A stretch of 32,392 bases of DNA from a virus, in the IMG/VR virus record IMGVR_UViG_3300001460_000063, positions 1 to 32,392 of that record. The stretch is one strand, 5' to 3'. The number at the start of each line of letters is the position of its first letter. The stretch's first letter is position 1. The position numbers and the translations under genes are program-made. Below are positions 12,528-30,428 of this stretch, piece by piece. The notes beneath the pieces are model-generated. The model saw only the letters and a list, made by a program, of their open reading frames with translations. It was not told where the DNA came from and ran no database searches.

Positions 12528-14159
12528 TTATTTTACTCCTATCACACACTCTGTTAATTGTGTGTCTTGCGAATATTTATCCTTCATCAACCTGCCCAGC
12601 GTATTAAAAGCGGTACATTTGTCCAGGTCAGCAACTCTGGCCTCACCTTTGCCTGCTGAAACCACGCGGTCGCCCGCTTTGCCTGTACCTGTCAATTTCA
12701 CCATTACACGCCCTTTAAGTGCCACCATAGGATGTGAGTCATTATTACCTGCATTAGCGTTCATTAGGAACGCTGGTGACTCTGATATCACACCAAAAAC
12801 GGAGTCTGACAGTTCATCTTTGCAAATGGTTATCTCTGCATCACCGCCTAGTATGACCACATCTCCCACTTCCGTCTGACAGTCTGCTTCGTAACGTTCT
12901 GCCAAGTCAGCATATTGCGCCGACGTTGATGTTGCATGAACTATGTTTGCTCTGATGTCCACAAGTGTTGGTGCCTCTAGCGCCGTGTCTGTGTTAGCGG
13001 CGGCCTTGAATGCTGTCCAGGCACCACCCGCGTTACCATGTACTGTTGTACCGTCGTCTGCGAATGTTTCATCCCATACCCAATATAGGTCTTGTTCTGT
13101 GGCGCTGGAGGTCTCTCCCCTGTTTACTTTTAGACCTGTGTGGCTGGGCATACCTGCGTTGTTGGATACCCCCCTGTTTAATTCTATTATGTTGTCTTCC
13201 ACAGACAGCGTCGATGTGTTAATAATTGTGTTTGTACCATCAACAGTAAGGTCACCAACCCTAAGATGTTCGATCCTGCCCGTTGATCCTGTTATCCTTA
13301 ATGCCTCTTTTGTTGTTCCGCCATCGTTTACCGTAAAAATTATATCCTTGTCCTGTGTGGTCTGTGCTACAGTGAAATCATCACTGGACAATGTCATCGT
13401 AATGTCATTGCCGGCACCTAGTCTTATACCATCGTCTGTTTGTATTGTGATTCTGCCTGTTGTTGTATCTGCTGAATCTGATCTTAGATAGTTGGCCGCA
13501 ACAACTCCACCTAATTGTTCCGAGTCTGTGGCTGTGCCTCTGAATTTCGCTGATGTGACAGATGATGAAAGTTGAATACCCTGTGCCACTGTTGAGAAAC
13601 CTGCTGACACGAGTGCCGCCCCAAGTGTTTCTGTAGAGCTTGGTGTAAATGCAAGATTTGATACTACACCTACGACTGTGTCATTGGCTACAAGTTTCAA
13701 AATACTACGTTTTACACCTGTGTTGTCTTCCGGTGATTCAGTTATCACCTGTGTAACGCCTGAACCTGCTACTGTTGTTGGTCCAATCAGTGTCCATGCC
13801 GATCCTGTGTACACATAAAGTTGTGTATTTGTTGTGTCAAACCACATGTCTCCAAGAACAGCACTAGATGGTGCTGAAGCGGAGTTTGAAGTTGATCCCA
13901 CTGGTTTGAACTTAGAGCCAGTGTATACATTCAATTGATTGTTTGTCTTGTCATACCATAACTGTCCTTGTATTTTGTTTGAGGGTGCTGTGGTATTATT
14001 GAAATTCTCTAGGAGTTTTACAAGGTTTTCGTTCAACCTCTCACCGAACCCTGCGTAGCCTTTACCTATGAGTGTGAGGTCTGTGGTCGCGACATCTATT
14101 GTCCCGTCCGCTAGTGTGACCAATAAGGTCCCGAATGTGTTGTTTATCTTGTATGCCAT
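12528..14159 (-). CDS. Fibre-like virion protein, 543 aa (paralogue C)
   Basis: The N-terminal 125 residues contain a shared module: GKGYAGFGERLNENLVKLLENF, then two copies of a unit of the form G(D/Q)(L/M)W(Y/F)DxTNxQLxVYTGSxW/F. The middle has NYLRSDSADTTTGRITIQTD and FTVNDGGTTKEAL cassettes found in the two other fibre paralogues. From about residue 415 there is a YADLAERYEAD domain with VGDVVILGG and VFGVISESPAFLMN. It resembles the C-terminal Peptidase_G2-like intramolecular chaperone domains of tail spikes. That domain would trimerise or release the mature fibre; cleavage is not shown. It lies between the 60-residue gene and the 317-residue virion gene. Confidence 0.75.
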   Translation of the reverse strand: MAYKINNTFGTLLVTLADGTIDVATTDLTLIGKGYAGFGERLNENLVKLLENFNNTTAPSNKIQGQLWYDKTNNQLNVYTGSKFKPVGSTSNSASAPSSAVLGDMWFDTTNTQLYVYTGSAWTLIGPTTVAGSGVTQVITESPEDNTGVKRSILKLVANDTVVGVVSNLAFTPSSTETLGAALVSAGFSTVAQGIQLSSSVTSAKFRGTATDSEQLGGVVAANYLRSDSADTTTGRITIQTDDGIRLGAGNDITMTLSSDDFTVAQTTQDKDIIFTVNDGGTTKEALRITGSTGRIEHLRVGDLTVDGTNTIINTSTLSVEDNIIELNRGVSNNAGMPSHTGLKVNRGETSSATEQDLYWVWDETFADDGTTVHGNAGGAWTAFKAAANTDTALEAPTLVDIRANIVHATSTSAQYADLAERYEADCQTEVGDVVILGGDAEITICKDELSDSVFGVISESPAFLMNANAGNNDSHPMVALKGRVMVKLTGTGKAGDRVVSAGKGEARVADLDKCTAFNTLGRLMKDKYSQDTQLTECVIGVK

Positions 14160-14344: not shown

Positions 14345-14372
14345 TTAAATGTACTCCTTATGCTTATTTATT
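14345..14372 (-). promoter_or_regulatory. T4-like late promoter motif and ribosome binding site
   Basis: The minus strand reads AATAAATA at 14372-14365, which matches the T4-like marine phage late motif NATAAATA. By T4 spacing, transcription would start at about 14359. The 15-base leader then carries AAGGAG before the ATG at 14344. The motif overlaps the TAA stop of the GNAT-like gene. It would drive the 60-residue protein and the two virion genes after it. Confidence 0.55.
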
Positions 14373-14828
14373 ACGTGATTCGATCTGCTCATCGTCTGAT
14401 ATCCAAGTTAAATCCCTGGTATATGCCCCGTCTAGATCGTGTATGAAAGTCTTAACGTTGCTCTCCGTAAGCACCATATTGTGGTATTTGGTGTATCTTT
14501 TGTGCAGTGCTTGTTCTTTTGTGGCAGTATAGACCAATTTCAATTTTTTTGTCTTTGCTAATTTGATAATCTCATCTATACACTGTTTCAAACAATTATG
14601 GACAATACGCTGTTTTGCGTCCTTGTCAGTCACCAACCATTCCATAAGGCCAAACGCAGTACCATCACAGACATACAAGCCACCAGCACAGATAGGCACA
14701 CCGTCATGCTCAACTACTATGCCGTCGGGAGGGAGGCACTCCTTTGGAACTACACCAAACTCCCACTTGTTCCACCATTTGACAAGTGTTTCATAATCCT
14801 TGTCTCTGTCCCACGATCTACTTTGCAT
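14364..14828 (-). CDS. GNAT-like acyltransferase, 154 aa
   Basis: The length and order of elements fit a single-domain GNAT enzyme. An N-terminal helix (DYETLVKWWNKW) is followed by DGIVVEHDGVPICAGGLYVCDG, which resembles the central strands. FGLMEWLVTDKDAKQRIVHNC matches the strand, acetyl-CoA loop and helix. KLVYTATKEQALHKRYTKYHNMV matches the last strand and the closing helix. A strict Q/RxxGxG/A loop is not present, because the loop reads DKDAKQR. The start overlaps the dehydrogenase stop by 11 bases. It is the last of a three-gene enzyme group placed between virion genes. Substrate unknown. Confidence 0.58.
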   Translation of the reverse strand: MQSRSWDRDKDYETLVKWWNKWEFGVVPKECLPPDGIVVEHDGVPICAGGLYVCDGTAFGLMEWLVTDKDAKQRIVHNCLKQCIDEIIKLAKTKKLKLVYTATKEQALHKRYTKYHNMVLTESNVKTFIHDLDGAYTRDLTWISDDEQIESRNK

Positions 14829-15408
14829 TTTTCTGTAACACTATTTTGTTCACATTAAAAGTCGACTCAAAACAGTATCTTACTGCATCTGCAACTTCTT
14901 GTGCTGTTAATTTTGGCAGATTATCCCATAATCCTTTTGTCATATCTGTGTCTACCACGTCTGGACATATGTCATACACCGACAAAGGTTTGTTTAATAA
15001 TTCTTCCTGTAGTTCACTGATGTATTCTATCAATTCTTTTTTGATTTCGCAATACTGTGAGTACTCAAACTTATCCCACAGTTTAAATTGGTGTAGGTCA
15101 GGTTCGTCGTCTAGTCCTGACGTGCTGGTGATAACCGCTACTTGCATTTTATCAAATGAATGTTGTCCGTAAATTCTCTTCAGCAAGGTCAATTGTCCTC
15201 TCAAGGAGTGTGCATTCAACACGACGAGACCACAGTCTTCAATTTTTTCCAAAATTTTTTCTTGATCATGAACAAGGTCAAAACCATTGCTCCTGCTTAA
15301 ACCCACAACGTCATATTTCTTATTCGTGTACAGATCGGCTATTGCTTTACCTATGCCTCGTGTATGACCTATAATTGCAATTTTATTTTTGTTTTTTCCT
15401 AGATTCAT
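14818..15408 (-). CDS. Short-chain dehydrogenase/reductase-like protein, 196 aa
   Basis: A Rossmann opening KIAIIGHTRGIGKAIADLY has GHTRGIG at 14-20, the TGxxxGIG nucleotide site with His in place of the usual Gly or Ala. LVVLNAH (N65) fits the NAG motif. TSTSG at 94-98 holds the serine strand, and YCEIK (Y119, K123) is the YxxxK active pair. DVVDTDMT matches the segment after the active site. At 196 residues it is shorter than the usual 240-250, lacking part of the substrate loop. It likely reduces or oxidises a sugar or small molecule with NAD(P)H. It overlaps the oxygenase gene by 26 bases. Confidence 0.78.
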   Translation of the reverse strand: MNLGKNKNKIAIIGHTRGIGKAIADLYTNKKYDVVGLSRSNGFDLVHDQEKILEKIEDCGLVVLNAHSLRGQLTLLKRIYGQHSFDKMQVAVITSTSGLDDEPDLHQFKLWDKFEYSQYCEIKKELIEYISELQEELLNKPLSVYDICPDVVDTDMTKGLWDNLPKLTAQEVADAVRYCFESTFNVNKIVLQKNAK

Positions 15409-16054
15409 ATGTGTCCACTAAATTTTCTAATCCTTCGAAACACTCCGAATAGTGTTGGTAATATTTTTCAAACTTATCTTTAGTGTACGCTGATTCTTTC
15501 CAAAAGTCAATCAATAACGTGGTCCTTGGCTTGGTATTTTTGTTGAAGCCGTTGTGTATTTGTTTGTCCGGCTGGAATACATAAGCGTCACCAGTTTTCC
15601 ATGTCATAAGTTCTTGTTCACGTGTTTCCAAGTTCATCACTTGCATACCGCTTTGATCTCCACCACCATCGTCAAGGCACATTTGATACCGCCATCCTCC
15701 CTCGTTATCTGTATGGTTACCAATTTTTGTGTCTGGTCCAACTGTCATAATAGCAACATTAGTTTTGTATGGAAATTTTCGCAGTATAGAGTACAGCATT
15801 GGATAATCGTTGAAATGTTGCAGTTCCTTCTCCCCAGACTGTATTCCCAGTGCCTGCCATTCTCCGTGGACATAGTCACCTGACCTATCATCAAAGTCGT
15901 CGGGCAGTCCCCTAACACTGTCAGAGAAATCTTCTGGTTCTAGAAAAGTTTTGTTTGGTTGTGTATCGAACTCGTGTTTTATGTTTTCCCAGTGTTTATC
16001 TAACTGTCTGAAACATTCGCCTTGTTGTCCTTGATAAAAACTACTATGAAGCAT
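15383..16054 (-). CDS. 2-Oxoglutarate/Fe(II) oxygenase, Asp/Asn beta-hydroxylase-like, 223 aa
   Basis: The iron-binding facial triad is visible: H114-x-D116 in IGNHTDNEGGWRYQ, then H167 in KQIHNGFN. R177 follows in PRTTLLIDFW, ten residues on, as the likely 2-oxoglutarate salt-bridge residue. A MTWKTGDAYVFQP strand before H167 is typical of the aspartyl/asparaginyl beta-hydroxylase and related cupin-fold oxygenases. The enzyme would hydroxylate an amino acid side chain or small molecule. It overlaps the end of the glycine-rich Hint protein by 11 bases, which makes that protein one possible target, but this is only inference. The C-terminus is basic and helical. Confidence 0.82.
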   Translation of the reverse strand: MLHSSFYQGQQGECFRQLDKHWENIKHEFDTQPNKTFLEPEDFSDSVRGLPDDFDDRSGDYVHGEWQALGIQSGEKELQHFNDYPMLYSILRKFPYKTNVAIMTVGPDTKIGNHTDNEGGWRYQMCLDDGGGDQSGMQVMNLETREQELMTWKTGDAYVFQPDKQIHNGFNKNTKPRTTLLIDFWKESAYTKDKFEKYYQHYSECFEGLENLVDTYESRKKQK

Positions 16055-17474
16055 TCAGTATATTAACATTTTTATCATGTATCTGTCTATCATGATCCTG
16101 CCAATTACTAAAGATTTGTTCGCCGTGATTTACTAATTCTTGTTGCTCACTCAATTCAAAGTAGTCTGTGAATTCTATTCCGTTAATTATTATTCTTCTA
16201 TTCATTGATCCAAACACATACACAATGGCATCATCATTTCCAAGAGATACACCGTGTTTGCTGTTCTCTACCCTTGTCCACATACCATCTTCTTTGACCA
16301 TGTGCGTTCCTGCAACTTGAATGCCTTTGTATTCGTACAAGTTGTCTATTAGGAATTTTGCAGTTGCGAACACTTTGCCACCTACCGCAACTTCGTCGCC
16401 TATGTCAATTAGTTCTACCGCTTTGAAAGTACCATCTGCCATTGTGATCATTGTACCTGGCATGAAACAACCACCGCCTGATCCTCCGCCTCCTGAACTT
16501 GATCCACCTTCTGAGTCACCAAATCCTGCCGCTGTTGACACGAAAGATATTCCTGAATTGAACAAGGCCTTCCAGGCTCCACCTATTTTAACATACCCTG
16601 CTGTGATCTGTTTCCAAGCACCACCAACTTTGAAGTATGCTTCTGTGAGAGTCTTCCATGCTCCTCCCACTTTGAATTCTCCTTGCACACCGATGTTGAA
16701 AACAACAACCGCTTTTCCGTCTGCTCCTGGACTACTAGGCTGTCCACCAACTGCCACTCCTGCTGTATAGTTAGATTCGCCTGTGCCTCCTGGTGTCACA
16801 CCTGATCCATCGCTTGATGAACCACTGGATGGGACTAAATTTGATCCAGACTTTCCGCCGGTACCACCATTGTCGCCTGATCCACCGTCTCCTGACGTAC
16901 CGCCGTCAACACCGCCACCACCGGCTCCACCACCACCACCGTCTCCGCTGTGGTCCTTGCCGTTCTCTCCCAGTGTTCCTGGTGTGTTTGATGTGGCTGA
17001 GTTTGCGTTTACGCCTGCTGTTCCGTTTGAGCTCTTACCTGCTCCTGCTCCACCTCCGCCGCCTCCTGCGACTGCGATGTCCGTTCCGTCGATCCTCACT
17101 AAAGTGGCTCCTCCGCCACCTCCACCTGCTCCTGAATATGGTTGTGGTCCAGCGTTACCGCCTTCTCCACCCGAATATGCTGTTTTACTTTTTCCGTTAG
17201 TACCACCTGGTGCCCCACCTCCAGATCCGCCACCGGCTCCACCACCACCAACTGCGACTTCTAATGTTGTGCCTATCTGTCCTGATGTGATCGCCAAAGC
17301 GGTTTTTTTGACATGGTGTCCTGCGGCTCCTGTTCCTCCAGGTCCGCCTGCGTCTGCGCCTCCGCCTCCGCCTGCTCCTGCCCAAAGGTATACATCTATC
17401 GATGTGGTGCCCGGTGGTATGGTTGCCTGCTGAAGGGTTCCTGTGTAGTTTAATGTCTTAGTGACTGCGACCAT
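16044..17474 (-). CDS. Glycine-rich adhesin-like virion protein with C-terminal Hint domain, 476 aa
   Basis: Residues 1-30 form a short beta domain. Residues 31-250 are dominated by poly-glycine tracts, as in the polyglycine-II adhesins of T4-like phages (gp38 type). At 266-302 there are three copies of a (F/Y)xK(V/I)GGAWK unit. After a Gly/Ser linker, CFMPGTMITMADG (C336) begins a Hint domain, continued by LIDIGDEVA, GIQVAGTHMV (H391) and WTRVENSKHG. C336 and H391 are the expected autoprocessing residues. No C-terminal Asn-Cys/Ser splice junction is seen, so cleavage rather than splicing is expected. A GGGAGG ribosome binding site lies upstream. It probably binds the host surface at the fibre tip. 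Confidence 0.78.
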   Translation of the reverse strand: MVAVTKTLNYTGTLQQATIPPGTTSIDVYLWAGAGGGGGADAGGPGGTGAAGHHVKKTALAITSGQIGTTLEVAVGGGGAGGGSGGGAPGGTNGKSKTAYSGGEGGNAGPQPYSGAGGGGGGATLVRIDGTDIAVAGGGGGGAGAGKSSNGTAGVNANSATSNTPGTLGENGKDHSGDGGGGGAGGGGVDGGTSGDGGSGDNGGTGGKSGSNLVPSSGSSSDGSGVTPGGTGESNYTAGVAVGGQPSSPGADGKAVVVFNIGVQGEFKVGGAWKTLTEAYFKVGGAWKQITAGYVKIGGAWKALFNSGISFVSTAAGFGDSEGGSSSGGGGSGGGCFMPGTMITMADGTFKAVELIDIGDEVAVGGKVFATAKFLIDNLYEYKGIQVAGTHMVKEDGMWTRVENSKHGVSLGNDDAIVYVFGSMNRRIIINGIEFTDYFELSEQQELVNHGEQIFSNWQDHDRQIHDKNVNILNAS

Positions 17475-18918: not shown

Positions 18919-18932
18919 TGCTTATATTTAGC
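18919..18932 (-). promoter_or_regulatory. Possible late promoter, one mismatch
   Basis: The minus strand reads GCTAAATA at 18932-18925. It differs from NATAAATA at one position and spans the stop codon of paralogue A. The ATG of paralogue B is seven bases further. The placement matches the two exact late motifs, but the mismatch keeps confidence low. Confidence 0.25.
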
Positions 18933-20424
18933 ACCTTCCCACTACTATATTAATTGTGCCTATTTCCTCTGAATCGTAATTTTCTAATGATTTTCCTATC
19001 ACTTCACCAACCTGTGGGTCATGTGTTTTCTTGGCAACACCGTTGTTGGCTGGATCTGTAGAAAGCATATCACCTTTGACAATGTGTCCTATCACTTTGC
19101 AGGGAACTTTACCCATTAATGCTACAGGTTGTCCTGCTGATTCTGAATTCATTAAGTACGCAGGCTTTTCACTGATCACACCCGCCACTCTCGGATCATT
19201 GCCTTCGGTGGCAATTGTGACTTCCTTGTCTCCGCCGAACACAACAACTGTGCCGACTTCGTACTCAGCATCGGTCTGGTATATCTCAGCCAAGTCAGCG
19301 TACTGCGCCGATGTGGCCTTGGCATATATTGTATTGTATTTCTTTGAAGCCGTTCCTATGTCGTATGTTAAATTTGTGTCTGGCTCTATTTCCTGTGTCG
19401 TGAGTTTGTCACTTAACACTAATGTTCCCATTGTATTTGCGCCTGAACTAGCAACATTACCTGTGAGGTTACCCGTCAGTGGTCCTGCGAATGCCGTTGA
19501 AGTAGTCGTGCCTGACACTTGTAATTTAGTGCTTGGCGTTGCTGTCCCTATACCTACTCTTGAGTCTGCCCCGTCTATGGTCATCACAGTGGTTGTCACT
19601 CCGCCGTCATTGACCTTGAAAGTTATGTCTGTGTTCGTGACAGTGTTTGATATTATTCCTCCAGAGCTATCAACTGAAAATGTTAAATCACTGTCCGCCC
19701 CAACAACTATTCCGCCGTCATTGGCAACACTGATTGTACCTGTAGTGGTGTCATTGGCGTTTGATCTTAGGAAGTTTGCCGCGGCAACTCCTCCTAATGC
19801 ATCTGAATCCGAGGCAGTGCCTTGGAATTTCAAATCGCTGATCGCTGTAGAAAGTGTTATACCTTTCTTGACTGTTGCGAAACCTGTAATGGTTACCTTT
19901 GGTGTAAAGGTGTCTTCTGATATGATGGCTATAAGATTCCCATCATTGAATAATTTTGTTATGTTCTGTGCTGTGTCTGATGAATCATTTATTGTGTCAA
20001 ATGTGAAACCGTTTGTGGTCCCGGTCGTGCTCGGTGGTCCTACGAGAACAGAATTTGATCCGTCATACAAATATAGTTGTCCTGTGTCGGAATCTATCCA
20101 AAGGTCTCCCCTTGTTAGCGAACTAGGGGCAGTTGCTTGGTATGGTACATTTCCACCAGCAGGAACAAATGTGGATCCTGAGTATACTTTCAACCTGTTG
20201 TTTGTAGAGTCGTACCAAAGTTGTCCGCTGATTGGTTTAGTCGGGGCAGTGGTGTTTGAAAAGTTTTCCAAAAGGTGCAAAAAGTTTTCGGCGATGCTCT
20301 CTCCGTAACCTGCATATCCTTTTCCTATGAATGATAAATCAGTCTGTGAGTTGACCACACCGTCCTGTACAGTGTACTGGTTTGGCGATGCCGAACTATT
20401 TGATTTGTTTACAGTGTATGCCAT
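18928..20424 (-). CDS. Fibre-like virion protein, 498 aa (paralogue A)
   Basis: The N-terminal module reads GKGYAGYGESIAENFLHLLENF, then GQLWYDSTNNRLKVYSGS and GDLWIDSDTGQLYLYDGS. The central cassettes are NFLRSNANDTTTGTISVAND and FKVNDGGVTTTVM. From about residue 372 a YADLAEIYQTDAEYEVGTVV domain with VAGVISEKPAYLMNSESAGQ closes the protein. It matches the last domain of paralogue C and resembles the Peptidase_G2-like chaperone domains of tail spikes. The ATG shares one base with the previous stop (TAATG) and has AGGA upstream. It is likely a tail fibre or baseplate-attached protein. Confidence 0.76.
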   Translation of the reverse strand: MAYTVNKSNSSASPNQYTVQDGVVNSQTDLSFIGKGYAGYGESIAENFLHLLENFSNTTAPTKPISGQLWYDSTNNRLKVYSGSTFVPAGGNVPYQATAPSSLTRGDLWIDSDTGQLYLYDGSNSVLVGPPSTTGTTNGFTFDTINDSSDTAQNITKLFNDGNLIAIISEDTFTPKVTITGFATVKKGITLSTAISDLKFQGTASDSDALGGVAAANFLRSNANDTTTGTISVANDGGIVVGADSDLTFSVDSSGGIISNTVTNTDITFKVNDGGVTTTVMTIDGADSRVGIGTATPSTKLQVSGTTTSTAFAGPLTGNLTGNVASSGANTMGTLVLSDKLTTQEIEPDTNLTYDIGTASKKYNTIYAKATSAQYADLAEIYQTDAEYEVGTVVVFGGDKEVTIATEGNDPRVAGVISEKPAYLMNSESAGQPVALMGKVPCKVIGHIVKGDMLSTDPANNGVAKKTHDPQVGEVIGKSLENYDSEEIGTINIVVGRC

Positions 20425-21149: not shown

Positions 21150-21163
21150 CTAGTGTATTTATT
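21150..21163 (-). promoter_or_regulatory. T4-like late promoter motif on the stop codon of the giant gene
   Basis: The minus strand reads AATAAATA at 21163-21156. It includes the TAA stop of the giant virion gene (21161-21159) and sits six bases before the ATG at 21149. By T4 late-promoter spacing, the first transcribed base is at about 21150. There is no Shine-Dalgarno sequence. The exact match to NATAAATA at a gene junction supports a promoter, but an eight-base AT-rich motif can occur by chance. Confidence 0.5.
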
Positions 21164-24100
21164 CAGGTGCGTTTGTAGGCTCGTTAGCAATGAATTTAGC
21201 CTGTTGTGTGCCAGAAGCCTGTAATCCTTTACCATCCGCTGGATTACCATCCTTAGCAGTGTACCATACCTGTCCTTTCTTGTGTAATATTTTGATCTGT
21301 GTGCCTGACGCAGGAACAGTGCTCAAAGTCACTGCTGTCGTGCTTCCGTCCACAAAGTAGTTGATAGTTGATCCATCCTCGCTAGTAAGTTCTAATCTCG
21401 CTAAATCGTTAGATTTAGGATTTCCGACTAATCGTTGGCCACCAATGAATATGTCTAACTCACTAGCAGAGGCTGGTGCTTGTGATAGTGCGAATGTTGC
21501 CGTGCTACCGTCGCCTGTGAAGGTGTTGGTGTAAACGGTGTCCGCATAAGGGATGGTTTGAGTACCAGACGCATCTACCACTTCAGTGCCTGATCCATGC
21601 TCCTTAATTCCTGTTCCAAGTGTTCCACGTCTTAGTTGTCCCAACGTGTTACTTGATTTTGTAAAGTATTCTATTCTCTCTTTGTCTATGAATATGACAC
21701 CTGGTACGTTCGCAGACGCATTTGGTGTTGGTAAAACACTTGCATCTTCCACCGTTATGGTCTGTGTTCCCGCGGTCATGTCTAGAGTTAATTTTGTTGT
21801 TGCTGTCTTGCTGATACGTTTGTAGAACGTCCTGTTCATCATGTCTTTAAATATCCTGAATCCTGTGGCATTTACCGCTGAATCCACTGCGAAGTACATC
21901 ACATCCAGGCTGTCCGATGACGTGATTGTTTTTCCTTTTACAGTGATTGTGTTTCCGCTAACTGTATAATCAACTGCCTGTGTCAGTTGTTCTCCGTTCA
22001 ACCACACATATGTGTATCCTGCATTTACTGTGTCGAATCTCAACTTGAATATTCCTGAGCCCTTGCCTTCTAGCACTTCTCTTCTCTGTTTCATGCCAAG
22101 TGCATTGTTTATTGATGTGACTGAAAGAACGTCATTGGCTGTGATAGCATTTCCATCTGCAGACAATTGGGTTGTGTTCAATATTATGTCTGTCCCTTCA
22201 TTGTAGTATTGATAGTCTGTCAATGTTGTTATTGCCACAAGATCGTTTGAACTAGGAGCAGTCTTGAAAACTATTCTGTCAGGACTACCTGCAATATCTG
22301 TTGTAAGACTTGATGAGTCAGCAGTTCCAGTTGTTGCGTCTGCCGTAGTAGTAGTTCCTGCCAAGTCCACAGTGTAATCAGTGTTTAGTACCTGTTGGAC
22401 ACCGTTCAAGTGCACCTGTATCTGTGCGGCACTTGTGATACTTTTTCCTGGATCCACGGTAGAATCTTCACCTAAAGGATTTACCCAAGAAGAATCTTCT
22501 CCAATTCCTGTCAAAGGGTTAAACAAATATCGTGTTGTAGTTCCATCTCCGAGATAGTAACTTATATCTGGTCCACGTAACATTTTTCCGTTTAATTCGA
22601 TCATAGTCAATCCTGAAAGTGGTCCTATAGCACCAGGTGGATATGTTAACGTGTATCTGTTTGTCGATCCATCATATGTTATGGCTTGGTTTCTCACACT
22701 TGCATAACTCCTTGTAGATGTTGCTGACTTGTTGAAACCGGCTATCTGTATGTAAGAACTTGCTTCAGGAGCCGAGGTGAACACGACCGTGATCGTGTTG
22801 GCCGAAGTGGTGGTCGAGTATGCAGTTGTTGGCACACCATCCACTGTGACATAGATGTCAGAAGATGTAGAATCTAAATTGAACTCACCTCTAGTTGAAG
22901 TAAGGAATGTAGTAGTACTACCGTCTCCTGTGAATGAATTCAACACTCTGTAATTTTCTCCGGATATAGCAAACACTTTCGTTGATATCTGTGTGTGATT
23001 TGCGGGTGCCGTGTCAAATGTAATTGTTTTGTTTGCAACATTGATTGAATAATCAGACACTGTTGAATCTAATGCACTGCCTTTCTGTACCACACCGTCA
23101 ACTGCAACAGTCACTGACCCAAGTGAGCCAGGATAGTCACCTATACTGAATGTCGTCGTGCTTCCGTTACCTCTGTGATTCATCTCACTTATAAATGGTA
23201 CGCCAGACTCTGGTGATGTGTAAACCTTGATATCTAATGTGTCAAACAACTGTCCAGGCACTACTTCTTCCGGTGCGTAACTAGTGTCTGGGGAAACAAA
23301 GTCGTCACCCTCTAACACAATGTCACTAGGTGCGTGTCCCAGTGCCGATGTGAATAAACCACCTTTGACTATTGAATCTAAAGTCCTGTCATCTGTTGGC
23401 GTCAGCACGCCGTCGTCATCGAAAGGTATGAATTCTACCAATGCGTTGGATTCTGGAGTTTCACTTATAGTGAAAGTCACTGTGGATCCGTCACCCCTGA
23501 TTACATCTGAAAGTTTCTTCCTGGTGCTGTCGTCCTGCGTCAAGTAAACTTGGTATACTTCACTGCTTGGAGGTGCAGAGTCAAATGTGTACGACGCAGT
23601 CGAACCGTCTGCCCTAAACGCCTTGACTCTAGAAGTACCGTAGTTGTCCCAAGGGAAATCATACCATCCTGCTTTGTCCCAACCCGCTTCTTGATTGAAT
23701 AATAAGCCAGTGACCATTGTGCCACCGTAATCAACACCTGTCATTACCTGGTCCAGTTCATTTCCTGGCATGTCTGTACCAGGTGTGTAGAAACCTTTTG
23801 TCCTGTCGGCCGCCGTAAGTCCGGTCTCGTTACCGTATACTTTGTACACACTTCCTATGTTGTCATCGAAGTCTGTGCTTGACGTGAATGCGTTTGTGAC
23901 TTTGTAAAGTTCATTGTTGTATCTCAATAGATCGTTGTAGGCGTATGCCGTTGATGCCGCCCAATCCACTACACGAGATGTGCTAGACACCCTGTCAAAC
24001 TTGATCGTTGTGTCAAAATCCCTAACAAGGTCGTTGTTTAGGTTTGCATATGCTTTAGCAGTGTCCGTTGGCTTTGTGCCGTCTGTCATACCGCCAGATA

Positions 24101-27100
24101 AAACAACAGTTGGTGTTGTTGTGTAGTTTGCACCATTGCCTGTTACTGTGATTTTCGTTACCGCACCACTTTGTATTGTTGCAGTTGCAGTGGCGGCAGT
24201 GGTTTCTGGAGTTACGTACATCTTGGATGTGCTAGACTTGTCACTTTGGGATTCCCTGACCGATGCTGTTGGGCCATAGAAAGTGCCTGTGTAACCATCA
24301 AAGGTGTAGGTTTTGGTAGTGCCCGAACCTGAATTCTGTAAGTCGTATATCTCTGCCTGTTTTTCACTTGTGAACAATGGATAGTAGTATCCAAACTGGC
24401 CGTTTGTTGCACCCGACGAGCTAGTTGCTTGAATCTGGAATGGACCTGTGGATCCTGTTGTTCCACCTAGAATGGTCACTGTTGGCGCAACTTGATATCC
24501 TGAACCACCTGCCGTCAGTGTGATCGACTGCACGTACTTCTTGTGGTAGTCGTACCACATCTGGTATGGGTATTCAGTTAATTTTGCTGTGTCTAATTCG
24601 ACGTTGAGGCTCCTGATCTTTCCTGTTGTAGCATCGTAGAAAGTTGGATTATCAAAATCTGAGAATATGCCGTCTTGTGTTTCCGTCTTATCATAACCCA
24701 GTTTGTACTCTCTTAATTTTGTGTGGAAGGGTTTGACTTCGTTGATGTAGCTCTCTATCCAACTGTCCGTACCAGTGGTGTAAGTTTTTCTCTGGTCTAG
24801 TTGCCTCACACTGTTTTTGGCATTTATGAACGATGTCTTGAACATCCAATCCACATACGTTTGCTCTGCCATAACTTTTCTTAATCCTGTAAAGAACAGT
24901 GTGTTGTATTCTCCGGCTAGATCATTTATGAATAAGTCATCCCTCAACGCTGTAAGTATTTTCCTAGTTTCTTGGCTTGGGTCTTGATCAAAGAAGTTGT
25001 CATCGAAATTATCTTGTCCGGCGAATCCTGACGCATCTTGACTGTAGTCGTAAAGTTTTGTGCTCAATCTTATCGTCCCGTTCTCTGTTCCAACATTTTT
25101 CCAACCGTCTGCTGTTTTCATAAACAGTTTCCAACCACCAGTGTCTGCGTTGGTGACTTTGACATGTTTACCTATTGCGACGTCTAAAGTGTCTAGCTCG
25201 TATTGAAACTTGACCTGCTTGTCAATTGGTGTGTTTTCGCTATGGATCATTTCATGGACCGCAGGATCTGTGCCATACCAATCTGTGTAACTCCAATAAT
25301 TTGAAGTGTTGTAAGTCTGTATTTTTGTTCTTGACCACTCTGTGCCATCCCATTGGTATATTGCCCAGTAGTTGTTAGCGGTCTCGTCTGCCTTTACCAA
25401 GTAGTTCACTGTTCCTGATAGATCTCCTGTGTTGATGTAGGTCAACTCAGCATATGTGTCTACCGAAGCGTCCCATTCGCCACTCTGTGCCGTTGGTTCT
25501 GGATCCACAGCATCTAGGTTTGTTAGATTTACCTGTCCAACCAGTTGGTTTTTCTTCAAGACACTGTTGGCATAGTCTATGATCTCTTCCAATGCGTCAT
25601 ACCTGTCAACATACCAGCTCTGTCTCGGTCTGATGTTGTTCCCGTATCTCTCGTTCAGCGGAAGATTTAAATCTGGCACAATGTCACCAGCGGAATTTTT
25701 ACCTATCAAAGAATCCCACCAACGAGTCTCTATCTGTTGTCCTGGCCTGTAGTCAGCATCGCCTTCTCTGACCAATTTCCATACACTGTGTGAATCTCCC
25801 TCGAATGTGTTTGTTCTTAAATCCACATTTAGTACTACATCGTCATTAGTTAAATTTGAAACATTGTTTAATAGTAATTTGTTAGTGTCTGTGATAGAAT
25901 AGTACTTGTAATCAAATGCCCTAGGATTTGAAATGAGGTTGGCCACAAAAGCCACTGTGTTCTTCCTGTGTGTAACACTGTTGGCAGGCATTGTGGTCTT
26001 GCCCTTGACCCAATAATAATAGTAGTTCACGAAACTGTCCAATTGTGAATTGTATTTCTGTGCAACAGTGTATTTAGAGTCATCGCCGTACAGTGCAGTC
26101 CCTGATACCGTTGATCTTGTGCCTTCCACCCTGTTGTTCCATTCACTTGGTAGGAGCCTTGACTCAACCCATTCGTACACATCTACGCTTGAACCAGGGA
26201 ATGTTTTACCCCAGTGATTGTGTTTGTATTCCTGTGTGTCCTGCTCGTACCACAACCATTTGACTGTGGAAAGATCCCACCATACCTCACCTATGTGATC
26301 TTCCGCCCATGGTGTTTTGAGGTTGGCTTTGTCTCCTGTATTGTATGTCGCTGGATCCCATGTGGTCTTAATGTTGATCTCCCTGTCTGCAACACCTAGT
26401 ATCCTGCCCTTGATGGGATCGTACAGATCATAGTACTCTATTATTTGTTTCGTCTTTCTGTTGAACTCGAAAACTTTGCCCAGTTTATCTGTATCCATCA
26501 GTGCTGTCTCAGTCACTATGTTCTTCCAAGCGTACTCGCCATTGTTTGTGAGATCGTAATATGCAACAGTACCATCATTCACCACTTTGGTGCTTCCGTC
26601 TGATGTTGTGTTTCCGTCGTCGTCTGGTGCACCAACGAACACCGTGTTGTCTATGACACAGACTCCTCGTCCAAAGTCATCATTTGCCGTCACGTTGTCT
26701 GTGATCAACCTGTCATCAACAATAAATTTAGTGTTGTACATAGTTGCCGTGAACGCTCCGCCGGATCCTGTATTGCTGTCAACTATGGTAGTATCCTGCA
26801 GATCAAAAGTCGTCTCTCCTGCATCAAATTTCATTTCTCTTGAGCTCGCAAAATTTTCAGCGCCTAATATTACTCTCGTGCCTGCATCATTGATGTCTAG
26901 ACTTGTACCAAACTTCATGTTCGTGCTTGACTCTGGAGCACTTATGGTCTGTTGCAACGTGTAGGTATTTGTCGAATCATCTGCGTTCCATTTGTAGTAG
27001 TACACGGCTCCCGCATCTGGATGTGACGTACCGTCAACACCAGGAGCACCTATCATGAGAGTAGTTCCGTCTTTACTCATTGCAATAGACTCACCAAATG

Positions 27101-30100
27101 CAGTGTTTATAGACGACCCGTCGCTCGATACTCCGGTTAATGTTTGTACCAGAGTAAATGAGTTCAGCGTACTACCGTCATTGGCTTGAGAAGTTTTTAC
27201 AAATATCTCAACTTTACCTGCATTACCTGGTGCCAAAGAACTTACGGCAAGTATGTCACCGTTATCGTTTGCTTGTACCCTGTGTCCAAATCTCTGTCCT
27301 CGGCCACCGTCTGGTGCTTCTATGGCAGTCTCTGACGTCCATGTGTCATACGTGGATCCGTCTGCTCCAACTCCCCAAGTGTACATGTAAACTCTACCTC
27401 GATCATTATCGTGGCCGGGTGCAGACACAAACAGATACTTGGCAGGTGTCGTTCTCACTGAATTGGCTCCCGGTTCTGATATCTTGTGGGACCATCCAAA
27501 GTTTAAATTTTCATTGGCTGTTGAGCCATCCGTGGGTGCGGTGACAGTTGAAAGAATACCATATTTGAATGTGGTTGGCTCCCACATATAAATTTTTACC
27601 AGTCCTGCATCAATCTGCCTTGTACTTCCGTCTAATCCAATTGTGTTTGTGTACGGTGCTCCTGCAACAACGAAGTTCTCATCAGTACTGATTGATAACG
27701 ACTCCCCCAGTCTGCTGGTGTTGTCATTGTTGTCTGTCATAGTTGCCGTAGACTGTGTCTGGAAAGATGTACCTGCGACTGTTGAAGATCTAAACAAGAA
27801 GTGTACTTCGCCTTGTCCTTTGCCCGGTGCAGATGCTATCATTGTTCTTCCGTCGTTACGTGCCACGATTCTGTGGCCGAACTCCTGTTCCGTTCCGCTG
27901 GCGTCTGGCGATAGAATTATTGCTGATGTGTATGGATCCTGTTTCTCGTACACACGCCAAAGTCCAGAACTGTCCGCGTCCGCGAACACCTTGTCTCCAG
28001 GTTGTCCTATCACGTCATCCTTGTCTACGTAATTTTCAAACCCTGTCAAGTCATTGACATTGTCCATCGATGACAATCTCACAGACAAGAATTTGTATAT
28101 GTTGCCATAACTGTCTGCGGTTGATCCGTCCTCTAATGCTGGGATGAATCCCACGTTGCCCGTGTAGTCTATGATCACCGTCTTGTGGTCTGGAGTAGAT
28201 GATACCTGGTAAACACCGTTCAGGGTCGCTTCCTCGCTGTTTACTATTGCAAAATAATCGGCCTGTGTGGTCGTTGAACCCGCCGTCAAGTTATGAGAAC
28301 CTGTGAACGTGATCTCCAACTGTGTTGAATCGTTGATCAGCTCTAACGTTGCTATCTTTATGCCAGCACTGGTGATCCTTAAAACGTCCCAATCACGGTT
28401 GCTCTTGTTGGCAACCCATATCAGATCGTTTGCAGTTATGGCGTTCGTGTCCAAGTTGAGGATCTCATCTATGTTGAACGCTGTGTGTTGAACTTGTTGT
28501 GTTTGTGGATATCCTGCAGTTTTAAATACCTGTACCGTGTCCCTGGTGACACCTCCCTTGGTGTAGTCAAGTCTCTTGAATGTCGTTGATGCTGTGTATT
28601 CAACTGGCTTGTAGTAAAAGTTTTCCTTTACGATGGCGTCTGATCTTGCGTAATCTATCTTGTCATTGGATGTGTCGAGCAACTCAATGCTCTGTGGGTT
28701 TGCTGTGATCTCGTCGTCTTTCAGTGTGATCTGTATGTTCTCTATGGAATCTGTGTTTCCGAGGTTGCCGGTACGAATCATCCATTCTGGATAAAGGTCG
28801 AGAGTGATGTCCTCCCCCTCATACTTGGCCTTGAGGATTTTGTCTATGGCGTTCTGTGTGCCCTTCTCCCTGATGTAGCCTTGATAGAACTTGTACTGTG
28901 ACACGTCGTTGACGAATAAGTTCTCTAGGTAGTCCCTGCTCTGGTACCCAGTGAGTCTTTGTGCTAACTGCTGTTGTGATTCGTCGAAATTGTTTGTTTC
29001 CAAGTTATAGAAGTCATTGAACTGTGAGATCTTGTATTCGAAGTTGGGTATTAGTTGTGGTGCTGGTTTCTCATTTTTAAGGGTCCAATTTGTTGTCTCA
29101 AAAGTTTGACCTGAGGTTTGATTGATTTTTGCCACGTAGAACTTGCCTTGGTATTCAACACTGTCGCCAATCCTGTAGTCAGTGTTGGCTGTCCAGTAAG
29201 TTACCTGTGCGGCGTCAAAAACGAAACCTGGTGCGTAGTAGTCACCGTTCCAGCCCGCTGTTTTCCAACCTACTAATTTCAATCTCTGTTGCCTAAATCC
29301 TGTGAATGGATCATATACGATGTCAGCGAACACTGTGCTGTTGTCGAACAGCAACACATGTTCCTTCTGTACAGTGTTCAGTGCTATGTTGTAAAGGCCA
29401 ACTGTGTCCGATTTAATGCCTAGTTCAAAAGTCTTGCCTATCCTTTTGGTTGAAATTTCCTGTATGTCGATCTTCCTGCCACCTGAATCTAACACTGAAT
29501 AGTCTCCTGCTAGATTACGAAGTTTGCCTACGATACTGTTGTTGGTGTCGAGTTCAAAACCATCCGCCGCTGGTGAAACTGTGACCGCTGACCCTGGAGT
29601 CCATTCCTGCGTTGTCCAGAACAGGAATTCTCTGACTGCGTTTGCCCAATTCAACGTTTCTTTGAGTTCGTTTGAGAACTTATTGAAGCGGAACCCCTGT
29701 GATTCCAACCAGTGACCATAACCGAACAAGAAGTCTGTTACGTCTTGTATGGTGTTGAACACATGACCATAAGGTATGGTTTGTGTGACCTGTTGGTAAG
29801 CGTTGTACTGTTCAACCACCGTCGATCCTTCAACAGATACTGACTTGGTAGTGGTAGTCTTTGTAGGGTAATTGAAATTGAAATATGGCTTTGTGGTACT
29901 GTAACCTAAAACTTTGTATCCACCCAGTATTGTCGAACCGTCCTGGCTGATGTCTGTGTTCTTCTCGATAAGCACACCCGAGTATTGGAAACTCTCTACA
30001 GGGTTGGATGTCCTAAACAGTATCTTGTAGTTTTCGTCTGGGATGAATTTTGATCCTGAAGTTGATCCCGGTGACACACTGTCTGTAAGTATCTTTATGT

Positions 30101-30428
30101 TGTCTTTGTCTGTGAACCCTCCCAACTTGTGTAGCAACTGCACAGATAGGTTCTTCATCTTGTCGTAGTAGAAAGTCTTAATGTCTAGACTCCTCGAAGC
30201 CAAGTAGTTGACCACATACGGTTGATATCCCGCTGTCTGGTACCTGGTTGTTACACCAGTCGCTAGATCGGTCTCTGTTTCAAGATGGTATCTTGCTGAG
30301 GCCAGTGTTTTCCTAACACCAGTTTCCGTGTAGATTTGGTTTCCCGCAACGTTGGTTGTCAATCTCGATGGATCAAAAAGATTGGAGAAGAGTTTTGCTG
30401 GTTTGGCCAGTGCCAGAGTCTTTATCAC
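21159..30428 (-). CDS. Giant virion protein, main part, at least 3089 aa (continues from the upstream frame)
   Basis: This frame holds most of a giant tail or baseplate-type protein. Residues about 1-830 are a mixed domain (DYLENLFVNDVSQYKFYQGY and similar). Residues about 845-1295 contain seven FG-GAP-like blades, each of the form FG-x-(S/R)-x(6-10)-DG-x(3-5)-(G/S)AP, for example FGESIAMSKDGTTLMIGAPG. A helical and beta region follows, with two AGGSGYQVAPTVTILGG-type repeats near 1970 and 2100. Residues about 2260-3045 are GDGSTTTF/VxVDGV/TITFxxAP beta repeats, with VIFIDKERIEYF and LGQLRRGTLGTG near 2900. The GTG at 30428 has no ribosome binding site at a usable distance. The real start is almost surely upstream across a frameshift. 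Confidence 0.82.
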   Translation of the reverse strand: MIKTLALAKPAKLFSNLFDPSRLTTNVAGNQIYTETGVRKTLASARYHLETETDLATGVTTRYQTAGYQPYVVNYLASRSLDIKTFYYDKMKNLSVQLLHKLGGFTDKDNIKILTDSVSPGSTSGSKFIPDENYKILFRTSNPVESFQYSGVLIEKNTDISQDGSTILGGYKVLGYSTTKPYFNFNYPTKTTTTKSVSVEGSTVVEQYNAYQQVTQTIPYGHVFNTIQDVTDFLFGYGHWLESQGFRFNKFSNELKETLNWANAVREFLFWTTQEWTPGSAVTVSPAADGFELDTNNSIVGKLRNLAGDYSVLDSGGRKIDIQEISTKRIGKTFELGIKSDTVGLYNIALNTVQKEHVLLFDNSTVFADIVYDPFTGFRQQRLKLVGWKTAGWNGDYYAPGFVFDAAQVTYWTANTDYRIGDSVEYQGKFYVAKINQTSGQTFETTNWTLKNEKPAPQLIPNFEYKISQFNDFYNLETNNFDESQQQLAQRLTGYQSRDYLENLFVNDVSQYKFYQGYIREKGTQNAIDKILKAKYEGEDITLDLYPEWMIRTGNLGNTDSIENIQITLKDDEITANPQSIELLDTSNDKIDYARSDAIVKENFYYKPVEYTASTTFKRLDYTKGGVTRDTVQVFKTAGYPQTQQVQHTAFNIDEILNLDTNAITANDLIWVANKSNRDWDVLRITSAGIKIATLELINDSTQLEITFTGSHNLTAGSTTTQADYFAIVNSEEATLNGVYQVSSTPDHKTVIIDYTGNVGFIPALEDGSTADSYGNIYKFLSVRLSSMDNVNDLTGFENYVDKDDVIGQPGDKVFADADSSGLWRVYEKQDPYTSAIILSPDASGTEQEFGHRIVARNDGRTMIASAPGKGQGEVHFLFRSSTVAGTSFQTQSTATMTDNNDNTSRLGESLSISTDENFVVAGAPYTNTIGLDGSTRQIDAGLVKIYMWEPTTFKYGILSTVTAPTDGSTANENLNFGWSHKISEPGANSVRTTPAKYLFVSAPGHDNDRGRVYMYTWGVGADGSTYDTWTSETAIEAPDGGRGQRFGHRVQANDNGDILAVSSLAPGNAGKVEIFVKTSQANDGSTLNSFTLVQTLTGVSSDGSSINTAFGESIAMSKDGTTLMIGAPGVDGTSHPDAGAVYYYKWNADDSTNTYTLQQTISAPESSTNMKFGTSLDINDAGTRVILGAENFASSREMKFDAGETTFDLQDTTIVDSNTGSGGAFTATMYNTKFIVDDRLITDNVTANDDFGRGVCVIDNTVFVGAPDDDGNTTSDGSTKVVNDGTVAYYDLTNNGEYAWKNIVTETALMDTDKLGKVFEFNRKTKQIIEYYDLYDPIKGRILGVADREINIKTTWDPATYNTGDKANLKTPWAEDHIGEVWWDLSTVKWLWYEQDTQEYKHNHWGKTFPGSSVDVYEWVESRLLPSEWNNRVEGTRSTVSGTALYGDDSKYTVAQKYNSQLDSFVNYYYYWVKGKTTMPANSVTHRKNTVAFVANLISNPRAFDYKYYSITDTNKLLLNNVSNLTNDDVVLNVDLRTNTFEGDSHSVWKLVREGDADYRPGQQIETRWWDSLIGKNSAGDIVPDLNLPLNERYGNNIRPRQSWYVDRYDALEEIIDYANSVLKKNQLVGQVNLTNLDAVDPEPTAQSGEWDASVDTYAELTYINTGDLSGTVNYLVKADETANNYWAIYQWDGTEWSRTKIQTYNTSNYWSYTDWYGTDPAVHEMIHSENTPIDKQVKFQYELDTLDVAIGKHVKVTNADTGGWKLFMKTADGWKNVGTENGTIRLSTKLYDYSQDASGFAGQDNFDDNFFDQDPSQETRKILTALRDDLFINDLAGEYNTLFFTGLRKVMAEQTYVDWMFKTSFINAKNSVRQLDQRKTYTTGTDSWIESYINEVKPFHTKLREYKLGYDKTETQDGIFSDFDNPTFYDATTGKIRSLNVELDTAKLTEYPYQMWYDYHKKYVQSITLTAGGSGYQVAPTVTILGGTTGSTGPFQIQATSSSGATNGQFGYYYPLFTSEKQAEIYDLQNSGSGTTKTYTFDGYTGTFYGPTASVRESQSDKSSTSKMYVTPETTAATATATIQSGAVTKITVTGNGANYTTTPTVVLSGGMTDGTKPTDTAKAYANLNNDLVRDFDTTIKFDRVSSTSRVVDWAASTAYAYNDLLRYNNELYKVTNAFTSSTDFDDNIGSVYKVYGNETGLTAADRTKGFYTPGTDMPGNELDQVMTGVDYGGTMVTGLLFNQEAGWDKAGWYDFPWDNYGTSRVKAFRADGSTASYTFDSAPPSSEVYQVYLTQDDSTRKKLSDVIRGDGSTVTFTISETPESNALVEFIPFDDDGVLTPTDDRTLDSIVKGGLFTSALGHAPSDIVLEGDDFVSPDTSYAPEEVVPGQLFDTLDIKVYTSPESGVPFISEMNHRGNGSTTTFSIGDYPGSLGSVTVAVDGVVQKGSALDSTVSDYSINVANKTITFDTAPANHTQISTKVFAISGENYRVLNSFTGDGSTTTFLTSTRGEFNLDSTSSDIYVTVDGVPTTAYSTTTSANTITVVFTSAPEASSYIQIAGFNKSATSTRSYASVRNQAITYDGSTNRYTLTYPPGAIGPLSGLTMIELNGKMLRGPDISYYLGDGTTTRYLFNPLTGIGEDSSWVNPLGEDSTVDPGKSITSAAQIQVHLNGVQQVLNTDYTVDLAGTTTTADATTGTADSSSLTTDIAGSPDRIVFKTAPSSNDLVAITTLTDYQYYNEGTDIILNTTQLSADGNAITANDVLSVTSINNALGMKQRREVLEGKGSGIFKLRFDTVNAGYTYVWLNGEQLTQAVDYTVSGNTITVKGKTITSSDSLDVMYFAVDSAVNATGFRIFKDMMNRTFYKRISKTATTKLTLDMTAGTQTITVEDASVLPTPNASANVPGVIFIDKERIEYFTKSSNTLGQLRRGTLGTGIKEHGSGTEVVDASGTQTIPYADTVYTNTFTGDGSTATFALSQAPASASELDIFIGGQRLVGNPKSNDLARLELTSEDGSTINYFVDGSTTAVTLSTVPASGTQIKILHKKGQVWYTAKDGNPADGKGLQASGTQQAKFIANEPTNAPE

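Follow-up and report, generated by a model that had tools for sequence, protein, structure and literature searches.

The locus described here raises the question of why a putative phage adhesin should end in a Hint-like domain, and whether that domain would cut the adhesin free, pass it to another molecule, or do neither. A sequence-only reading of the gene had proposed a glycine-rich adhesin that is mounted on the tail by a hedgehog-like device. The gene is an ATG-initiated open reading frame (ORF) on the minus strand of the window, which is the whole stretch of 32,392 nucleotides that we analyzed and is part of a virus record of 40,304 bases (Table 1). The flanking ORFs match tail-fibre and virion structural families, indicating that the gene lies in a run of tail genes. 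Two of the ORFs in the vicinity, at 12528-14159 and 18928-20424, are tail-fibre-like paralogues with common N-terminal repeats; the first has a weak match to Peptidase_G2 IMC at its C-terminus, and the C-terminal region of the second matches the same phrog_22593 region. The tail region also holds an ORF of 3089 aa at 21159-30428.

Table 1. Features of the adhesin-Hint gene and of the genes associated with it, in window coordinates.
Feature	Position	Strand	Basis
Whole gene, 476 aa: TNF-like/glycine-rich adhesin, KVGGAWK repeats, Gly/Ser linker and C-terminal Hint domain	16044..17474	-	ORF, AF2 model, residue count
Residues 1-262: TNF-like and glycine-rich domain	16689..17474	-	AF2 pLDDT about 75-97; VIA Z 13-14; Foldseek E 1.8e-5
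Residues 266-306: three K[VI]GGAWK repeats, predicted beta strands; matches phrog_25859	16557..16679	-	AF2, phrog match
Residues 307-335: linker, its end SGGGGSGGG modelled at low confidence; G335 precedes the predicted scissile bond	16470..16556	-	AF2, sequence
Residues 336-437: Hint core, from C336 (domain C1) to D437 (domain D102); H391 is domain H56	16164..16469	-	AF2, Foldseek, VIA, alignment
Residues 438-476: conserved C-tail, begins YFE, two predicted helices, ends NILNAS	16047..16163	-	AF2, alignment
Aspartyl/asparaginyl beta-hydroxylase homologue (PF05118)	15383..16054	-	Pfam; locus comparison
Short-chain dehydrogenase/reductase (SDR) homologue, between hydroxylase and partner gene	14818..15408	-	Pfam; locus comparison
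Partner protein, 154 aa, phrog_17252, GNAT-like by eye only	14364..14828	-	Gene-neighbour counts, PHROGs

The N-terminal part of the protein has the features of an adhesin. Glycine makes up 37% of residues 33-260, and the repeats begin at residues 268, 282 and 296, the third reading KIGGAWK rather than KVGGAWK. Most of residues 1-330 were modelled confidently in the full-length AF2 prediction, and the nearest folds to residues 1-262 in Foldseek were those of the tail fibre gp24 of cyanophage Pam3, the Bxb1 tail tip and the TG domains of LTK/ALK; VIA gave Z-scores of 14.1 to 7ypx and 13.5 to Bxb1. As modelled, this part is a phage TNF-like/glycine-rich adhesin in which a TNF-like sandwich is combined with a glycine-rich lattice, a fold of receptor-binding type that it has in common with the Pam3 gp24, S16 gp38 and Bxb1 tail-tip adhesins. 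Both the glycine-rich, adhesin-type region and the three repeats that had been proposed from the sequence alone are thereby borne out. Receptor recognition by Pam3 gp24 has been ascribed to its TNF-like and glycine-rich domains, and docking of the fibre to its N-terminal helices (PMC9608196). The window protein differs from Pam3 gp24 and S16 gp38, which dock by N-terminal helices and have been described without a Hint domain, in that it adds a C-terminal Hint domain and in that the strands of its modelled TNF-like domain begin as early as residue 2 and are preceded by no docking helix. Docking must therefore use another part of the protein, and in the model the adhesin presumably attaches through its C-terminal side.

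The identity of the C-terminal domain rests on structure together with the intein-type block A. This is because sequence profiles alone would not prove a Hint domain: in Pfam only block A of the 476-aa protein was seen, below threshold (Hom_end_hint, 17.7 bits against a cut-off of 32.1), the Pfam Hint model gave 11.6 bits against 29.7, and a sequence profile of the domain matched only fragments in the PDB. The Hint part of the full-length AF2 prediction was not usefully modelled (pLDDT mostly under 50), so the domain was modelled separately from 22 aligned sequences, which gave a mean pLDDT near 90 across domain residues 1-100. Foldseek searches with this model had a best E of 5e-5, and all 50 PDB matches listed were Hint, intein, hedgehog or BIL domains. 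Poor modelling of the C-tail kept the TM-scores at a moderate 0.5-0.6. In VIA the top-ranked structure was BIL2 of Tetrahymena (Z 13.0; 107 residues superposed at 2.0 A), with hedgehog 1at0 at Z 11.6 and with inteins and a Clostridium BIL also close, although rows within 1 Z are tied and their order is no evidence. Other viral Hint proteins were also listed by the fold searches. Residues 336-437 thus have, as modelled, the Hint fold.

To gain data on the residues that matter in this domain, relatives were gathered as fifty loci from a sequence search, 80 retained from 186 alignment-search matches, and more through divergent members and the partner gene described below. The resulting 127 distinct domains are those with duplicates removed and both ends covered. 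C336 is the sole cysteine of the 476-aa protein, and its equivalent, Cys1, was present in 127 of the 127; that invariance was not built in, since the search patterns behind the 186 matches omitted the cysteine. Natural homologues lacking the cysteine, which would have spoken against a catalytic role, were thus looked for and numbered zero. Glycine precedes Cys1 in all but one of the 127. Seven positions (C1, F2, H56, V58, T101, D102 and F104) were invariant in an alignment of 122 distinct sequences, a few rows of which also contain an upstream Hint domain, with no effect on the counts from the 127. The Hint domain with C336 and H391 that the sequence-only reading had recognized is accordingly upheld by both model and alignment. 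It was also right that C-terminal splice residues are missing: where inteins have H-N-(C/S/T) the window protein has T436-D437-Y438, and T101-D102 recurs in 122/122 sequences and Y103 in 121. No sequence among the 122 has a C-terminal His-Asn-(Cys/Ser/Thr), and the domain is always C-terminal rather than set between two exteins, as an intein would be.

Selection on the domain is stronger than on the protein that carries it. Among 37 close relatives dN/dS was 0.077 for the Hint part, compared with 0.23 for the N-terminal part, and by this measure the Hint part is under strong purifying selection. The C-tail of 39 residues is conserved whatever the N-terminal partner, and its position may recall that of the sterol/adduct-recognition region of hedgehog proteins. 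Two features count against autoprocessing. One is the TxxH motif, which reads [SA]-G-x-H, its threonine being serine in 109 sequences and alanine in 13, including the window protein (A388); in hedgehog, T326A greatly reduces activity (PMC9163320). The other is the hedgehog general base D303, which has no clearly conserved counterpart. A weak alignment places it near domain residues 41-42, where residue 42 is D, T, N, K or E, and the Hint-hedgehog profile alignment spans only block A to about residue 46.

The Hint domain is not confined to adhesins. Clustering of its N-terminal partners gave twelve groups; one of these is no more than a truncated upstream Hint domain, and the others include glycine-rich adhesins, VrlC/DUF4815 proteins, and proteins adjoining terminase, portal and major head genes. 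Sequence identities in the Hint and adhesin parts were weakly correlated (r 0.24). Some pairs were 97% identical in the Hint domain and 56-59% identical in the adhesin, and other pairs had a milder reverse pattern. By these comparisons the domain is a cassette that moves, being attached to about ten structural proteins of unrelated kinds and recombining independently of them. Some of the loci lie on small contigs of 4-10 kb, for which a Microviridae origin was considered; nearby terminase, portal and head genes identify these contigs as tailed-phage fragments.

The cassette includes a second gene. A small gene, which we call the partner, lay downstream of distinct Hint domains in all 134 cases where the contig reached far enough for this to be assessed. 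The same linkage was found from the other side, as searches seeded from the partner placed a Hint domain upstream in 77 of 77 assessable loci, drawn from the closest 80 of 115 relatives. Two arrangements occur after the Hint gene: either the partner, of 144-163 aa, comes next, or a beta-hydroxylase gene and an SDR gene intervene, in that order. The next start codon is usually within the last codons of the Hint gene. The window has the second arrangement, with the hydroxylase starting inside the last codons of the Hint gene; insertion of these two genes was observed at glycine-rich loci and at the VrlC loci L046-L048. The beta-hydroxylase might hydroxylate a tail protein. Neither the partner gene nor the mobility of the cassette had been part of the sequence-only reading.

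The partner belongs to a family that PHROGs places in its category of unknown function. Its assignment as a GNAT acetyltransferase had no profile support: one of 17 members reached E 0.068 to PF00583, nothing was found in PDB profiles or NCBIfam, and small hhalign tests against four MAG GNATs were null, their positive control being weak too. Distant relatives of the partner occur in flavobacterial phages (Tenacibaculum, Maribacter, Cellulophaga) and in an uncultured podovirus, among or beside structural genes. No Hint domain is annotated beside these relatives, and the one upstream protein that was read through contained none. Given its constant linkage, the partner protein probably has as its target the Hint domain, the thioester or the released product.

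The family has a narrow known distribution. The whole 476-aa protein had no tblastn match among phages, and with the Hint domain alone the matches were either to block A of inteins or weak and partial; among the 50,697 phage records searched, no cultured phage with this Hint domain was found, and megablast of the window returned no near phage. The same fusion, a search for which in other phages the sequence-only reading had suggested, was present at further marine glycine-rich loci but at none in those records. The genome collection gave a single match, a contig (L160, NHDJ01000025.1) binned in a Verrucomicrobia MAG and carrying the full Hint-hydroxylase-SDR-partner cassette; this contig is probably viral. 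From these sequences the Hint family has so far been seen only in marine phages.

Taken with the modelled fold, these data lead us to favor, with some reserve, a reading in which the last 141 residues form an autoprocessing Hint domain that cleaves off the N-terminal part. Because Cys1, the block-B histidine and the glycine at -1 are present and H-N is not, one would expect an N-S acyl shift with cleavage on the N-terminal side, the chemistry of hedgehog proteins and B-type BILs, which keep the N-terminal reaction without canonical splicing (PMC7765530; PMC7664689; PMC9163320). Judging from sequence, self-cleavage would likely fall at G335|C336. In this scheme, which includes a timing within assembly that we likewise infer, the precursor would fold and C336 would attack the G335 carbonyl in an N-to-S acyl shift, with help from H391. 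Canonical splicing could not follow, as block-G residues T-D-Y replace H-N-(C/S/T). The thioester would be resolved by water, in which case a C-terminal maturation domain is simply removed, or else by a different nucleophile; the TNF-like/glycine-rich host-recognition adhesin would leave the Hint part behind and have ...SGGG as its mature C-terminus. We regard plain removal as the safer of these readings, but a covalent transfer to some other molecule, by analogy with BIL2, is possible in view of the obligatory partner, the glycine end and the missing docking domain. The domain, linker and partner gene would move together, as a cassette, from one virion protein to another unrelated one, which suggests a general maturation device. 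The idea of a hedgehog-like device for mounting an adhesin therefore stands in part: the Hint domain, Cys1 and the nearly invariant G|C junction are as expected for N-terminal autocleavage, but the device is not specific to adhesins. Since the domain also occurs on VrlC/DUF4815 and on terminase-, portal- and head-side proteins, and is tied to a partner gene, the mechanism must be more general than adhesin mounting.

Comparison with known systems revealed both likenesses and differences. BIL2 of the Tetrahymena BUBL1 locus (6y75, 6tmm) has 23% identity to the phage domain over the superposed residues and shares Cys1 and the block-B histidine. It uses N-S acyl shift chemistry, is reported to form an isopeptide bond without ATP and has been linked to lysine conjugation (PMC8616854). 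BIL2 ends in Asn and sits between two ubiquitin-like domains, whereas the phage domain ends in T-D-Y with a 39-residue tail, has phage structural proteins as N-terminal partners and is accompanied by a separate partner gene. Hedgehog Hint/Hog (1at0) is like the phage domain in its fold, its Gly-Cys-Phe junction, its lack of H-N and its conserved, partly helical region after the Hint core, and its SCYA lines up by eye with TDYF (the hedgehog sequence was checked against 1at0). It differs in that the phage domain matches the Pfam Hint model only below threshold, has no clearly conserved counterpart of D303, does not conserve the TxxH threonine, has no sterol context, and belongs to phages rather than animals. 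B-type BILs, set beside the phage family by their description, resemble it by motif, with N-terminal cleavage motifs kept, the C-terminal splice motif lost and variable fusion partners. They have been reported from bacterial proteins that are not conserved, where they lie within hypervariable regions (PMC7765530), whereas the phage family is phage-borne and has a fixed partner gene.

Several other explanations have to be weighed against autoprocessing. The Hint part could be a removable C-terminal folding helper which, like the Peptidase_G2/IMC-type C-termini nearby, helps the protein to fold or keeps it from assembling too early, and is afterwards removed by simple hydrolysis. The matches of the two neighboring paralogues are in keeping with this, and fibre tips often need chaperones, such as Pam3 gp25 (PMC9608196). 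A chaperone is expected to co-evolve with its client, yet Hint and adhesin shuffle, and a helper role by itself leaves the obligatory partner gene and the use on portal-side proteins unexplained; we view it as possible but lean against it. It is unlikely, in our estimation, that the thioester hands the C-terminal glycine of the adhesin to an amine (a lysine or an N-terminus) of another virion protein, in an ATP-independent isopeptide bond like those that BIL2 makes for ubiquitin-like domains, with the partner possibly a transferase or docking factor. That BIL2 is the closest structural match would fit, as would the flexible glycine-rich end with its nearly invariant Gly -1, the lack of an N-terminal docking domain, the tandem forms in which a canonical H-N Hint domain is followed by Lys-Gly, and a dedicated, always-linked partner, which exceeds what plain hydrolysis seems to need. 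A common fold does not show common chemistry, no candidate acceptor was found, and the GNAT likeness of the partner lacks support from Pfam, NCBIfam, the PDB or hhalign. The wider proposal is that marine phages possess, in Hint and its obligatory partner, a module for protein conjugation that needs no ATP. In it, Hint would make the thioester at the glycine end of a structural protein, and the partner would help to transfer it to an amine of a second virion component, so that adhesins and other parts are covalently mounted. We think this proposal improbable, together with the convergence with ubiquitin-like conjugation by ciliate BILs that it would imply. Both the helper and the conjugation explanations overlap with autoprocessing, each being one fate or purpose of cleavage, so our confidences in them do not sum to one.

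Two further explanations would do away with cleavage altogether or with its present function. An inactive Hint fold might be retained as a binding or structural domain, as the change of the TxxH threonine to alanine or serine and the loss of H-N would suggest. In a dead enzyme C1 would be free to drift, and instead Cys1, the block-B histidine and Gly -1 are invariant or nearly so, which makes this quite doubtful. Block A resembles the intein N-termini of phage helicases, terminases and RecA-like proteins, as it would in a remnant of an ordinary intein or selfish element. We consider such an origin very improbable, as the domain sits at the C-termini of unrelated proteins without a separate C-extein or homing endonuclease, dN/dS is 0.08, and the splice residues are replaced by an invariant T-D.

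Overall, the same domain, together with the same small partner gene, recurs with many phage structural proteins that are unrelated to one another, and this points to a module for protein maturation or protein joining that has not been described. The phage Hint domains in the papers that we found are inteins, in a terminase, in a ribonucleotide reductase and in the terminases of Rak2-like phages; the open-licence literature that we searched contained no non-splicing Hint domain that serves virion proteins as a portable C-terminal cassette and has a fixed partner gene. Work on cultured phages would have missed the domain, given its absence from the phage records searched. If it cleaves, it would be a maturation route for phage structural proteins, and if it transfers, a route of covalent assembly without ATP. 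The linkage to the partner allows a clean two-gene experiment.

During these comparisons we also noted about 15 proteins with two Hint domains in tandem, on several unrelated N-terminal partners (loci L042, L099, L100, L103, L106-L110, L116, L121, L132, L148, L151 and L158). In these, a canonical Hint domain (Cys1, TSEH, VVHN) is followed by one of the T-D type, the two usually being joined by Lys-Gly. Relatives of the upstream domain were sought among phages and none were found; the domain itself passes the Pfam threshold, at 52 bits.
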